Origin: Pseudothermotoga hypogea DSM 11164 = NBRC 106472
Lineage (GTDB): Bacteria > Thermotogota > Thermotogae > Thermotogales > DSM-5069
NCBI RefSeq assembly: GCF_000816145.1
Contig: NZ_CP007141.1
Coordinates: 248,001 to 312,000, forward strand
Direction of reading: 5' to 3'
Length of the DNA: 64,000 nt
A model generated the notes under the pieces. It worked only from the letters and a program-made list of their open reading frames with translations, ran no database searches and was not told the DNA's origin. The translations under genes and the position numbers were made by a program. Positions 34,359 through 38,080 of this stretch are shown piece after piece (the first letter of the stretch is position 1; every line of letters starts with the position of its first letter).

Positions 34359-35105
34359 TCAGGTTGTCGCTGTTAGTTTGGATTTTATCATCGACTTGAG
34401 CTGGCTCGCTTGGACTTTTTGTTTCGATTTGTCGATACGTGCGATGATCTTCCCATCCTCCATGACGATCACGGTGTCACCGTACTGTTCGGCGATGTTC
34501 ATATCGTGCGTGATCATGAGGATCGTGGTACCGAGTGTCTTGTTTATCCTGTCGGTGAGTTCCATGATCTTCTCGGTGCTCTTGGGATCCAGCGAAGCTG
34601 TGTGCTCGTCGAGCAGGAGCAGCTTGGGGTTTGAAGAGACGGCCATCACCATGGCGAGAGCCTGTTTTTGACCCCCAGAAAGCTTGGAGGCCTTTTTCTT
34701 TAAATTCTCCTCCAGTCCAAGTTCACAGGACCTGAGCAGTTCGATCGCCCTCGGATCCACACGACCGAAGCTCAAACCCCTGAAGCCTTTCTTTCTGGCG
34801 AGCATGAGGTTCTCTTCGATACTCAAATTCGGAAAGATTCCCAAATTTGGATCCTGACAGACTATGCTGCCACACTTAAAAATCTTCTCTTCTCTGAGTA
34901 CTTGCCCCATGATGCGGCAGACTCCGAAGGTCGGTTTGACCTCTCCAACCACCACTTTCATGAGCGTGCTCTTACCCGCACCGTTCGCGCCAACGATCAC
35001 CACGAACTGGCCTTCTTCCACCAAAAGATCGACGTTCTTCAGTGCGACCTTCTCATCGAGAGTGCCTCTGTTGTAGATCACGGTGACACGCTCGAGCTGT
35101 ATCAT
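34359..35105 (-). CDS. trpZ: Tryptophan-type ABC transporter ATP-binding protein (TrpZ)
   Basis: A 248-residue ABC ATPase with Walker A (GANGAGKST near residue 40), signature KLSGGQKQALAM, Walker B (LLLLDEHTASLDP) and switch His (LMITHDMN). The Glu-His after Walker B replaces the usual Glu-Pro. The start ATG 35105 overlaps the permease stop as ATGA; a longer frame upstream is not used. It belongs with a DUF534-type binding protein and a single permease, the trpXYZ layout. Confidence 0.88.
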   Translation of the reverse strand: MIQLERVTVIYNRGTLDEKVALKNVDLLVEEGQFVVIVGANGAGKSTLMKVVVGEVKPTFGVCRIMGQVLREEKIFKCGSIVCQDPNLGIFPNLSIEENLMLARKKGFRGLSFGRVDPRAIELLRSCELGLEENLKKKASKLSGGQKQALAMVMAVSSNPKLLLLDEHTASLDPKSTEKIMELTDRINKTLGTTILMITHDMNIAEQYGDTVIVMEDGKIIARIDKSKQKVQASQLKSMIKSKLTATT

Positions 35106-36064
35106 ACGGTCACCTCGCTCTTCTTGAGTCTTCTCGCAGCTATGACACTGACGACGAACATCGCGGTGAGCAACTTCATGTCGCTTGGTTTGAAGCCGAT
35201 CCGATAACCGTACTTCATCGCGAGTGTCAACAGGATTTGATATACCACTGCACCCACGATGGGAAAGAACAATCCGTATGCAACTTCTCTGGAACCGAAG
35301 ATGATCTCTCCCAGGATCACCGAAGCCAAACACACCACGACCATGCCGGTGCCCATGTTCACATCCGCAAATCCGCTGTACATACTGAACAAAGCCCCCG
35401 ACAAACCCACAAGAAAGTTCGCAACGGTCAGACCCATGAGTGCGAAGAGGTTAGGATTCACACCGAGCACCTTGACGGCAAACCTGTTGCGGCCGTAACC
35501 TCTCAGCATCGTGCCGAGTTCGGTGCGCAAAAAGAGCCAGAACAGGAAACTGATGAACAGAAGCAAGGAAGCGATGAGAATCAGATCATGGCCATCAGCC
35601 TTGTTGTTGAACGGTACTGTCACCGCCTTCATACCCTGACTCTCATACTGCAGATTTCCAATCCCTCCGAGTATGTCGTCCAGGGGAGTTTTTCCAACGA
35701 CCTGTTCATAAGAAAGGATCTTTTCGGTACTGAAACGGGGGATCGGTAGATTCGGAGCGTTCATGACCCTTATCGCGACCGAGTAAAGACCCGTCATCAC
35801 CATGATGGAAGCCAGGAGCGTATGGATTCTGAAACGCGTGCTGATCAAAGCGGTGATGAACCCAGCTGCGCCGGCGGCGAGCGCAGCCAGGAGTGTTGCA
35901 CTTACCCACCCATGACCGGAGCGGAGAAGAACCACCGCGACGGCCCCTCCAACGATGTAGGAACCGTCGGGCGTCAGATCAGGAAGATCAACGAGTCGAA
36001 ACGATATGTAAACACCCATGGCGGCCAGGGCGAGCAGTAATCCCTGTTCGAGGATCGCTATCAT
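35102..36064 (-). CDS. trpY: Tryptophan-type ABC transporter permease (TrpY)
   Basis: A 320-residue branched-chain-type ABC permease with eight to nine helices and the family's conserved segments: RLVDLPDLTPDGSYIVGG near residue 23, LRGYGRNRFAVKVLGVNP near 190, and ANFLVGLSGALFSMYSGFADVNMG near 218. It is one subunit, presumably homodimeric. Overlaps on both sides are ATGA, so the three transporter genes are coupled. Confidence 0.9.
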   Translation of the reverse strand: MIAILEQGLLLALAAMGVYISFRLVDLPDLTPDGSYIVGGAVAVVLLRSGHGWVSATLLAALAAGAAGFITALISTRFRIHTLLASIMVMTGLYSVAIRVMNAPNLPIPRFSTEKILSYEQVVGKTPLDDILGGIGNLQYESQGMKAVTVPFNNKADGHDLILIASLLLFISFLFWLFLRTELGTMLRGYGRNRFAVKVLGVNPNLFALMGLTVANFLVGLSGALFSMYSGFADVNMGTGMVVVCLASVILGEIIFGSREVAYGLFFPIVGAVVYQILLTLAMKYGYRIGFKPSDMKLLTAMFVVSVIAARRLKKSEVTV

Positions 36065-37041
36065 CTTTTCACCTCTTGACCGTTTTGAACGATGATGTCC
36101 GCCCTGTCAATGAGTTCCTGTGGAATACTCACGTTCAACTCTTTCGCCAGATCGAGGTTGATGAAAAGCATCAGCGATTCGGGTCCGAGCAAGTGTGACT
36201 CGAGCTCGCTGGGTTTTTTGCCTTTCAAGATCTCGACAACCAACTTCCCCGTCTCGACTCCCACTTGGAAGTAGTTGAAACCAAAGCCTATCAATCCTCC
36301 TTGACGGGCGATGTCGATGTCGGCAGCCACGATTGGTTTCTTCAATCTGAGAGCTGCCGCTCCTATGGCCTGCATCGAAGAAGCCGCGGTGTTATCGGTT
36401 CCTATGTAGATCACATCGACATCCGGTCCTACGCTGTTCACCGCCGCGACCATTTCGCTCGCGTTGGTACCCGTCATGTCCAAGATGGTGAGTGCGAGCG
36501 ATGGAGCAGCGGCTTTCGCCATGTTGGTGAGCGTAACGGAGTTCGCCTCTCCCGGATTGTAGAGCACCCCTACCTTCTTTGCGTTTGGAAAGACCGCCTT
36601 GATGAGTTTCAGATGGGTCGAGACCGGCACCATGTCAGAGATACCAACAACGTTCGACTCGTTTTTCCCCAACTGCTTGATCAAGCCTGCTCCCACCGGA
36701 TCTGTCACCGCGGAGAAGATCACGGGCCTGTCGGTGATCACTTGAACGCAAGCCTGGGCGCTCGGAGTCGCGATAGCAACAACGATGTCGACTCTCTCAC
36801 TTGCGAACTTTCGTGCGATCGCCGCAGCGTTCTGCACGCTACCTTGGGCGTTCTGTCTGTCGATGACCACGTCAGTGCCGACTTTGAACCCTGCATCCTC
36901 GATTGCCTTGATGATACCGTCGAAAACTGCGTTGAGTGCCGGATGGTCTACGATCTGCGTGATACCGATCTTCACGGTTCCGAAGCTCAGAACTGACACG
37001 ATCAGCAAAGCTACCACGGCGGCTAAAGATTTGCTCAACAT
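36061..37041 (-). CDS. trpX: ABC transporter substrate-binding protein, DUF534/TrpX family
   Basis: A 326-residue exported solute-binding protein with a signal peptide (about residues 1-21; no lipobox Cys). The DUF534 features include KIGITQIVDHPALNAVFDGI near the mature N-terminus, IATPSAQAC, PVIFSAVTDPVGAGL, KVGVLYNPGEANS and DVIYIGTDN. In Firmicutes the trpXYZ genes with such proteins are preceded by tryptophan-specific T-boxes. Here a leader-peptide attenuator takes that place. ATG 37041 is preceded by GGAGGTGTGGGT; a GTG at 37047 is less well spaced. Confidence 0.9.
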   Translation of the reverse strand: MLSKSLAAVVALLIVSVLSFGTVKIGITQIVDHPALNAVFDGIIKAIEDAGFKVGTDVVIDRQNAQGSVQNAAAIARKFASERVDIVVAIATPSAQACVQVITDRPVIFSAVTDPVGAGLIKQLGKNESNVVGISDMVPVSTHLKLIKAVFPNAKKVGVLYNPGEANSVTLTNMAKAAAPSLALTILDMTGTNASEMVAAVNSVGPDVDVIYIGTDNTAASSMQAIGAAALRLKKPIVAADIDIARQGGLIGFGFNYFQVGVETGKLVVEILKGKKPSELESHLLGPESLMLFINLDLAKELNVSIPQELIDRADIIVQNGQEVKR

Positions 37042-37069: not shown

Positions 37070-37102
37070 AAAAAAAGAGGGCATCCTTTTTTGGATGCCC
37101 TC
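37070..37102 (-). terminator. Intrinsic terminator (attenuator) of trpXYZ
   Basis: In the - strand transcript the 5' arm is 37102-37093, the loop is A6 and the 3' arm is 37086-37077. This is a perfect 10-bp stem (GGAUGCCCUC is the 3' copy of the inverted repeat on the + strand), followed by seven U (37076-37070). It ends about 30 nt before the trpX start, so it must be bypassed for expression. Confidence 0.92.
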
Positions 37103-37180
37103 TTCCTTTCTGTTAAGATTCCCCTCTATGTACCAAGTGGTTTGGGGGGAATCCCGGAAGAGGGCTTTCCCCTAAACCAC
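37097..37180 (-). promoter_or_regulatory. Mutually exclusive leader hairpin and antiterminator
   Basis: Hairpin 1 (37180-37137) pairs GUGGUUU-A-GGGGAA, which begins in the Trp codons, with UUCCCC-CC-AAACCAC: 13 pairs around a 1x2 internal loop. Its apical part holds GCCCUCUUCC (37165-37156). That decamer is exactly complementary to GGAAGAGGGC (37106-37097), which includes part of the terminator's 5' arm. A ribosome halted at the Trp codons would open hairpin 1 and favour the antiterminator. Confidence 0.82.
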
Positions 37181-37230
37181 CAATAAGCGTATGCAAATTC
37201 ACCAAACCTGAGATCTTTTTTTACGTCCAT
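37126..37230 (-). CDS. Leader peptide with tandem Trp codons (34 aa)
   Basis: The short frame starts at ATG 37230, about 30 nt after the predicted transcription start, and stops at TAG 37126. Residues 17-18 are Trp-Trp, preceded by Tyr-Ala-Tyr and followed by Phe-Arg-Gly, so a run of aromatic codons (AYAYWWF) ends in two UGG codons. The stop codon falls between hairpin 1 and the terminator, as in classical trp leaders. The upstream bases GGGGG make a modest ribosome site. No function of the peptide itself is implied; its translation rate is the sensor. Confidence 0.85.
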   Translation of the reverse strand: MDVKKDLRFGEFAYAYWWFRGKPSSGIPPKPLGT

Positions 37231-37267
37231 AGTAACCCCCGCTCGCACTGTTTTGATCTTTGCCAAA

Positions 37268-37296
37268 AGTATATCACTCATCCCCGGACGTGTCAA
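37268..37296 (-). promoter_or_regulatory. Promoter of the trp leader-trpXYZ-lysA operon
   Basis: On the - strand TTGACA (37296-37291) is followed after 17 nt by TATACT (37273-37268). This near-consensus pair places the transcript start about 30 nt upstream of the leader peptide. Confidence 0.88.
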
Positions 37297-37359: not shown

Positions 37360-37965
37360 TCAGACCAAAGGTTTGATCATTCTGCAGAAGTTCAGGCTAT
37401 GATCTTTCGAGAGTTTCGTCTGGAATTTTTCTACCACTTCAAACCCAAGTTTTCTGTATAAACTCAGAGCGATAGTATTGCTCTCCTCGACCTCGAGAAC
37501 CAGTCTTCTCGATCCAATTTTTTTGGCATCTTCTTCCGCCTTTTCCATCAAAAGTCTGCCGATACCAATTCCTCTGAACCTGGGATACACCGCAAGATTG
37601 CTTATGTAGTAATCACTTTCGGCAAGTTTACAAAGCTCTGCGTTTAATCGGAGCAAAACACGGAAAATTCGAAGCATCTTGAAACCCAGCACTCTGAAAA
37701 ACAAATGGCCCGTTCTGAGATACTCCTTTCGGTGTGTTTCCCAACTGTAGGAAAGTATCATGCCAGCGATCTGTCCATCAATTTCGGCAAAACAGACATG
37801 CTGAAAAGAAAACAGATTTCTTGGTGAGACAAAAAGATTTTTCAAAACTCTCTTCGTATCATCCTTGAACAGCTCAACAAAAAATGGTGCCGAAATCAAG
37901 AAGAGTTCACTGAAGTCGGGCCCATCTTCTGGTTGAGCCTGTCGGAGAGAGAACGATGGATCCAT
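37360..37965 (-). CDS. GNAT-family N-acetyltransferase
   Basis: A 201-residue GNAT protein. The acetyl-CoA binding motif A is YPRFRGIGIGRLLMEKAEEDA near residue 128 (Q/RxxGxG/A seen as RFRGIGIG), preceded by the strand YYISNLAV and followed by SNTIALSLYRKLGFEVVEKF. It resembles RimI-type enzymes but carries an N-terminal 60-residue extension, so the acceptor is unknown. ATG 37965 follows AAGGGGGCGTGAAG. It lies 24 nt downstream of tRNA-Leu on the same strand, with no terminator between, and may be co-transcribed. Confidence 0.88.
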   Translation of the reverse strand: MDPSFSLRQAQPEDGPDFSELFLISAPFFVELFKDDTKRVLKNLFVSPRNLFSFQHVCFAEIDGQIAGMILSYSWETHRKEYLRTGHLFFRVLGFKMLRIFRVLLRLNAELCKLAESDYYISNLAVYPRFRGIGIGRLLMEKAEEDAKKIGSRRLVLEVEESNTIALSLYRKLGFEVVEKFQTKLSKDHSLNFCRMIKPLV

Positions 37966-37989
37966 CTTCACGCCCCCTTGAAACAAAAA

Positions 37990-38080
37990 TGGTGCCGGGG
38001 ATCGGATTCGAACCGACACGGGGCCTCGCCCCAGCGGATTTTAAGTCCGCAGCGTCTGCCTGTTCCGCCACCCCGGCACC
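37990..38080 (-). tRNA. tRNA-Leu (anticodon UAA)
   Basis: A class II tRNA of 91 nt. Acceptor GGTGCCG pairs with CGGCACC, the discriminator is A, the anticodon arm is GCGGA-CTTAAAA-TCCGC, a long variable arm (TGGGGCGAGGCCCCG) is present, and the T arm is GTCGGTTCGAATCCGAT. The 3' CCA is not encoded: the bases after the discriminator are TTT. A TTGACT element with an 18-nt spacer to TAGACT lies directly upstream. Confidence 0.97.

Follow-up and report, generated by a model that had tools for sequence, protein, structure and literature searches.

A ribosome-mediated transcription attenuator that senses charged tRNA for the aromatic amino acids very probably controls an ABC importer for these amino acids in Pseudothermotoga hypogea. 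It lies in the window, by which we mean the whole stretch of 64,000 nucleotides that was analysed, and every element of the attenuator and of the importer operon is on the minus strand. An earlier note on this DNA had put forward ribosome-mediated attenuation of an uptake operon in Thermotogota, and this proposal is strongly supported by 47 of 47 leaders and by the lack of any T-box in the genome.

Organization of the leader and the importer operon

The elements upstream of the importer, and the three genes of the importer itself, are as follows.

37268..37296, minus strand: promoter TTGACA-N17-TATACT (TTGACA 37296-37291, TATACT 37273-37268), 11 of 12 consensus matches
37236..37242, minus strand: putative ribosome binding site of the leader ORF, purine-rich, GCGGGGG; most relatives have a G-rich stretch about as far from their start codon
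37126..37230, minus strand: leader ORF of 34 codons, MDVKKDLRFGEFAYAYWWFRGKPSSGIPPKPLGT and stop (ATG 37230-37228, TAG 37128-37126), predicted
37174..37197, minus strand: control-codon patch F-A-Y-A-Y-W-W-F, codons 12-19, six of eight aromatic
37137..37180, minus strand: hairpin 1, the sequestering hairpin (37180-37162 with 37155-37137), with the antiterminator strand in its tip
37156..37165, minus strand: antiterminator 5' strand, decamer GCCCTCTTCC, exact complement of GGAAGAGGGC at 37106-37097
37146..37153, minus strand: second antiterminator helix, 5' strand GATTCCCC, pairing with GGGGAATC at 37124-37117
37117..37124, minus strand: second antiterminator helix, 3' strand GGGGAATC, pairing with GATTCCCC at 37153-37146
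37097..37106, minus strand: strand GGAAGAGGGC, shared by the two structures as the 3' side of the antiterminator and the 5' arm of the terminator
37070..37104, minus strand: intrinsic terminator, 12-bp stem (37104-37093 with 37086-37075), A6 loop and T-run 37076-37070
36061..37041, minus strand: TrpX-type substrate-binding protein (ABC_sub_bind, PF04392), ATG at 37041, preceded by GGAGG
35102..36064, minus strand: permease (BPD_transp_2, PF02653), by Pfam match
34359..35105, minus strand: ABC ATPase (PF00005), ATG at 35105

The promoter, the 34-codon frame with Trp17 and Trp18 (37182-37180 and 37179-37177) and the decamer at 37156-37165 complementary to 37097-37106 were all present exactly as the earlier note had described them, the peptide containing GEFAYAYWWFRGKPSSG. 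The hairpin that begins at the Trp codons and the terminator built on the shared strand were also found, each with a stem differing in length from that reported: hairpin 1, with its 5' arm at the Trp codons, has 16 pairs with small interruptions rather than 13 pairs, and the stem of the terminator, which had been described as a perfect 10 bp followed by U7, has 12 pairs. The promoter score is weak when taken alone, as shuffled sequences also averaged one promoter per region; comparable −35/−10 pairs lie upstream of the leaders of close relatives. The control-codon patch, with six aromatic codons of eight, has a binomial P of 1.6e-5 against a background of 9.4%, and the antiterminator duplex, which the second helix within it (GATTCCCC with GGGGAATC), absent from the earlier note, extends, has a calculated energy of −23.2 kcal/mol, a value that none of 500 shuffles equalled.

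In a combined search for a terminator, an antiterminator 8-mer and at least five aromatic codons of eight in an open frame, this site was the sole match in the window; in 291 Mb of dinucleotide-shuffled sequence the same search, whose criteria were set only after the site was known and were then modified once, gave 703 terminators, of which 4 had an antiterminator strand and none had a codon patch. We concluded that the leader is real and far beyond what chance would produce. A DNA-similarity search of the genome, a single contig of 2.17 Mb that is 99.97% complete, gave no further copy of it. The importer operon is followed by lysA. Upstream of the leader and on the same strand lie tRNA-Leu(TAA) and a GNAT acetyltransferase gene (37360-38077), and in close relatives tRNA-Leu is immediately upstream of the leader promoter. 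Among named relatives the closest is a Pseudothermotoga MAG, with a TrpX 94% identical to that of the host.

Conservation across Thermotogota

A search of 103 Thermotogota genomes showed the importer in 40 of them, with 47 TrpX-type gene copies, and the upstream regions of all 47 were inspected, 8 leaders being assigned by hand and the remainder by script. Every one of the 47 genes is preceded by a short ORF in which codons for Phe, Tyr and/or Trp are densely clustered, by an antiterminator strand that starts 0-11 nt downstream of the last aromatic codon, and by an intrinsic terminator located before the importer gene. Orthologues lacking the short frame or its codons, which the earlier note had named as grounds for giving up the idea, were looked for and none was found. 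Different families have stems of unrelated sequence, as illustrated by the terminator 5' arms GAGGGCATCC, GGGTGTCTAC, GGTGGATGCC and GAGGACGTT; the position of the stop codon ranges from 16 nt before to 35 nt after the end of the antiterminator strand; the C-terminal half of the peptide is variable outside the close family; and among the 47 leaders there is no sequence common to all families that might be an aptamer.

When TrpX-type genes of other phyla were searched by script, no comparable leader was found, except for one candidate. On a Candidatus Bipolaricaulis contig (L098:4714-4862) a leader ORF ending in PTFYGYWFA and stop, followed by a terminator, precedes a TrpX-type gene; its antiterminator is unclear. 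It is possible that this is a case outside Thermotogota.

Mutually exclusive pairings and ribosome position

The earlier note had looked to a cross-genome alignment of the leaders for conserved tandem Trp codons and for compensatory changes in the stems. What proved to be conserved was an aromatic patch, in 47 of 47 leaders; the compensatory changes in close clades were not above those in shuffles, the stems varying too little. Within these clades 93-98% of alignment cells pair, as compared to 35-70% with the partners slid. Because the close clades were too invariant for covariation, we used a cross-family swap test, in which the 45 nt following the patch were paired with the terminator arm in 18 diverse leaders. 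The antiterminator of each leader matched its own terminator better than swapped ones, with an own-partner mean of −17.7 kcal/mol that none of 20000 permutations reached. Assayed against dinucleotide shuffles, 42 of the 47 duplexes gave P values of 0.02 or less; the poor fits included G099b (P 0.146) and G057a, G057c and G078 (about 0.06).

We then modelled the ribosome by partition function, placing its leading edge 14 nt past the first base of the A-site codon, an assumed footprint. With the modelled ribosome in the patch the antiterminator formed, and it was lost near the end of the patch, in the 47 leaders; the last permissive codon was at most one codon from the last aromatic codon in 38 of them and at most three in all 47. 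For the leader in the window, the fold calculation predicted that a ribosome on any codon of the patch leaves the antiterminator free and that one on the next codons does not. This modelled outcome follows in part from the spacing itself, but it is the spacing that is conserved.

An equilibrium calculation for 14 leaders, with no ribosome present and with the shared strand made but not yet the 3' arm of the terminator, favoured the antiterminator over hairpin 1 in these leaders; in many leaders hairpin 1 does fold in the pre-terminator RNA. Since the antiterminator wins at equilibrium, the off state would need kinetic trapping by hairpin 1, formed first during transcription, and we infer such a kinetic step.

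We propose that when Phe, Tyr or Trp is scarce, Trp probably having the strongest effect, the ribosome would stall on FAYAYWWF and mask the 5' arm of hairpin 1, leaving the decamer just downstream free; the free decamer would pair with the terminator 5' arm, so that the terminator would be blocked and the importer transcribed. With enough charged tRNA, the ribosome would move on, covering first the decamer and later reaching the stop codon, and after its passage hairpin 1 would capture the decamer and the terminator would form.

Amino acids probably sensed by the leader

The leader had been described as a tryptophan attenuator. The Trp codons are indeed present, and Trp alone is too narrow a description, the patch being rich in Phe, Tyr and Trp codons and some paralogues having leaders with only Phe or only Tyr codons. 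The specificity of the attenuator should, from its codons, be for aromatic amino acids, wider than Trp, and any of the three may dominate. We consider it unlikely, while giving it some weight, that the attenuator responds to Trp only, with Phe and Tyr codons that are incidental to the patch, and serves a Trp-specific importer. A ribosome stalled at the tandem Trp codons would be best placed to mask hairpin 1, Trp makes up as little as 0.9% of residues, the patch has Trp close to its 3' end in most Thermotogota leaders, and homologous systems of Streptococcus import Trp (PMC9382623), all of which such a reading would explain. Against it, Phe and Tyr codons recur in the patches of diverged and otherwise unrelated leaders (FAYAYWWF, YFYFWYW, FYFYYFWW, YYYWY), and true WWW leaders do exist, both before biosynthetic operons and before two of the importer paralogues.

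Copies of the importer that arose by duplication have leaders with altered control codons. Two related genomes (G045 and G057) each have three importer copies in one cluster, and the patches of these are Phe-only (FVFAF / FAFAF), mixed (YYFWY / YGFWY) and Tyr-dominated (FVYAYY / YAYY). In G099 the copies have patches WWW, FSFF and FSFYFYYW, and the leaders with the last two have their first 15 residues in common (MIKDNNKNLINIFSF) and split exactly at the control codons; in G081 the patches are FYFYYFWW and WWW. The trp biosynthetic operons of Thermotogota have Trp-only leaders (WWW or WW) of the same layout. These patterns suggest that function corresponds to the codons more closely than to the peptide or the RNA sequence. 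Leaders upstream of trpE (L136, L153, L137, L138, L147, L152) read INWWWHLG, TWWWHL, NCWWHRERPSS and NGWWYRARC and have the same antiterminator/terminator layout; that of L152 includes TGGTGGTACCGCG, which resembles T-box core sequence and reads as leader codons Trp-Trp-Tyr-Arg, and Rfam shows no T-box at L152.

Searches for biosynthetic genes, which were positive in 14 of 14 control genomes, found no trpE, no prephenate dehydratase and no chorismate synthase in the host genome (99.97% complete), and only a weak partial match to trpD. With these genes missing, the host is probably an auxotroph for all three aromatic amino acids and needs Phe, Tyr and Trp to be imported; that it is unable to make Phe either is a further point against sensing of Trp alone.

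The binding protein did not behave as the trpXYZ-type Trp transporter component that the earlier note had named: it belongs to the same Pfam family (PF04392) and scored 253 bits against the TrpX equivalog (NF041285), below the cut-off of 390 bits. Of the solved homologues, VC_1101 binds Phe, CD0873 Tyr and SP1069 Trp, and two residues have been proposed to set substrate choice; at the position of CD0873 Tyr-279, Gln in the pneumococcal homologue permits Trp, and Tyr is said to hinder it (PMC6816091). In Thermotogota this Trp-permitting Gln is absent, replaced by Tyr in 40 of 40 proteins aligned. At the position of CD0873 Glu-263, which is linked to Tyr selectivity, there is Asp in every aligned copy whose patch has Tyr codons, and Asp is kept in G099a and G099b; the copies with Phe there are the two with Phe leaders, from G045/G057, and the one of G081 with the WWW leader (L157, L031, L032). 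The association of this pocket residue with the leader codons (Fisher P 0.001) is a lead only, because it comprises just two independent events and was noticed post hoc. Our judgment is evenly divided on whether there is one modular, re-codable attenuator for aromatic uptake, whose common form reads Phe, Tyr and Trp jointly and in which duplication was followed by rewriting of the codons to the single amino acid that is the new substrate, together with a change in the pocket. Transport of all three aromatic amino acids by the importer in the window would fit the codons of its leader.

Other readings of the leader

A nascent-peptide sensor of the TnaC type, in which the near-complete peptide would stall the ribosome when free Trp is abundant, was considered for the Trp-containing peptide, which in the close family has a Pro-rich C-terminus, PPKPLGT. 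It was rejected as very improbable: the C-terminal half is not kept beyond the close family and stop positions vary between families, the aromatic residues swap between paralogues in a way that fits codons and not contacts of a peptide with the tunnel, and the importer would be induced when the amino acid was plentiful. Just as improbable, in our estimate, is an RNA switch that binds a ligand or protein (riboswitch, T-box or TRAP-like), with the short ORF as a by-product. Its terminator/antiterminator architecture is common to such switches, and the trpXYZ operon of Streptococcus suis is controlled by a Trp T-box (PMC9382623). The T-box covariance model (RF00230), however, had no match at the locus or in the whole host genome, and no Rfam family reached threshold at the locus, where Trp_leader (RF00513) was unlisted at E values up to 10 and Phe_leader (RF01859) scored 19 bits against 55; moreover, no aptamer-like sequence is conserved across families, and what all of the leaders have in common is the aromatic-codon frame and its spacing from the antiterminator. 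A chance ORF before an ordinary terminator, which might for example insulate the importer from the tRNA-Leu and GNAT genes upstream on the same strand, is effectively refuted by conservation of the leader before 47 of 47 genes despite differing sequences and upstream neighbours, and had no match in the 291 Mb of shuffled sequence.

Significance and comparison with known systems

Most descriptions of leader-peptide attenuation concern biosynthetic operons of Proteobacteria and Actinobacteria. The attenuator described here is of a known mechanistic kind, and for its phylum and its uptake target we found no earlier report in the literature searched, a search that reached few subscription papers. 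In Thermotogota it is a phylum-wide rule for this importer, in a mostly thermophilic phylum and a host genome without a T-box, which raises the question of whether the mechanism is old or has arisen repeatedly. The paralogues constitute a natural experiment in which Phe, Tyr and Trp control codons differ while the architecture stays constant, and if the re-coding reading is true, leader codons would predict the substrates of transporters that are now just called TrpX-like.

The trp, pheA and pheST leader-peptide attenuators of Proteobacteria act by a ribosome-mediated mechanism. The Thermotogota leader resembles these, and the actinobacterial trp attenuators, in having a short ORF with control codons, a codon hairpin, one strand shared by antiterminator and terminator, and a U-run; it differs from them in its phylum, its lack of any sequence relation, its ABC importer target and its mixed Phe/Tyr/Trp codons, and, unlike E. 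coli trpL, its stop codon position is not conserved. Trp leader-peptide attenuators are known in Corynebacterium and Streptomyces (PMC1262725), and a 2013 survey considered the Rfam amino acid attenuators probably gamma-proteobacterial in origin, with targets that are mostly biosynthetic operons (PMC3766115). As would be expected of this class, the predicted short ORF, which has a start codon and a putative ribosome binding site, lies between promoter and terminator; the control codons fit the operon, with an aromatic patch in 47 of 47 leaders and homologous proteins that bind aromatic amino acids (PMC6816091); antiterminator and terminator are mutually exclusive, having one strand in common; and in the model a stall at the control codons, and not beyond them, frees the antiterminator.

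Outside Proteobacteria and Actinobacteria, where according to one survey leader-peptide attenuators are mainly found, His leader peptides precede hisS/hisZ paralogues in bacilli, and ABC-leaders were also described (Naville and Gautheret 2010, PMC2965389); the text of that survey does not mention Thermotoga. The Thermotogota leaders are like these in lying outside the two phyla and on duplicated genes and ABC transporters, whereas the His leaders of bacilli concern a single amino acid and synthetase genes, and a paralogue-specific change of control codons is not described there. With the S. suis Trp T-box they share a homologous importer operon and the sensing of tRNA charging through transcription attenuation, the T-box binding tRNA directly and the Thermotogota leader presumably using a translating ribosome as the sensor. 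Finally, T-box specifiers change between paralogues of Firmicutes (PMC3766115) and have been used in transporter prediction (PMC2494555). There, as proposed here for Thermotogota, a codon in an RNA leader predicts amino acid specificity after duplication; in Firmicutes that codon is the T-box specifier, whereas in Thermotogota it would be a set of translated control codons.
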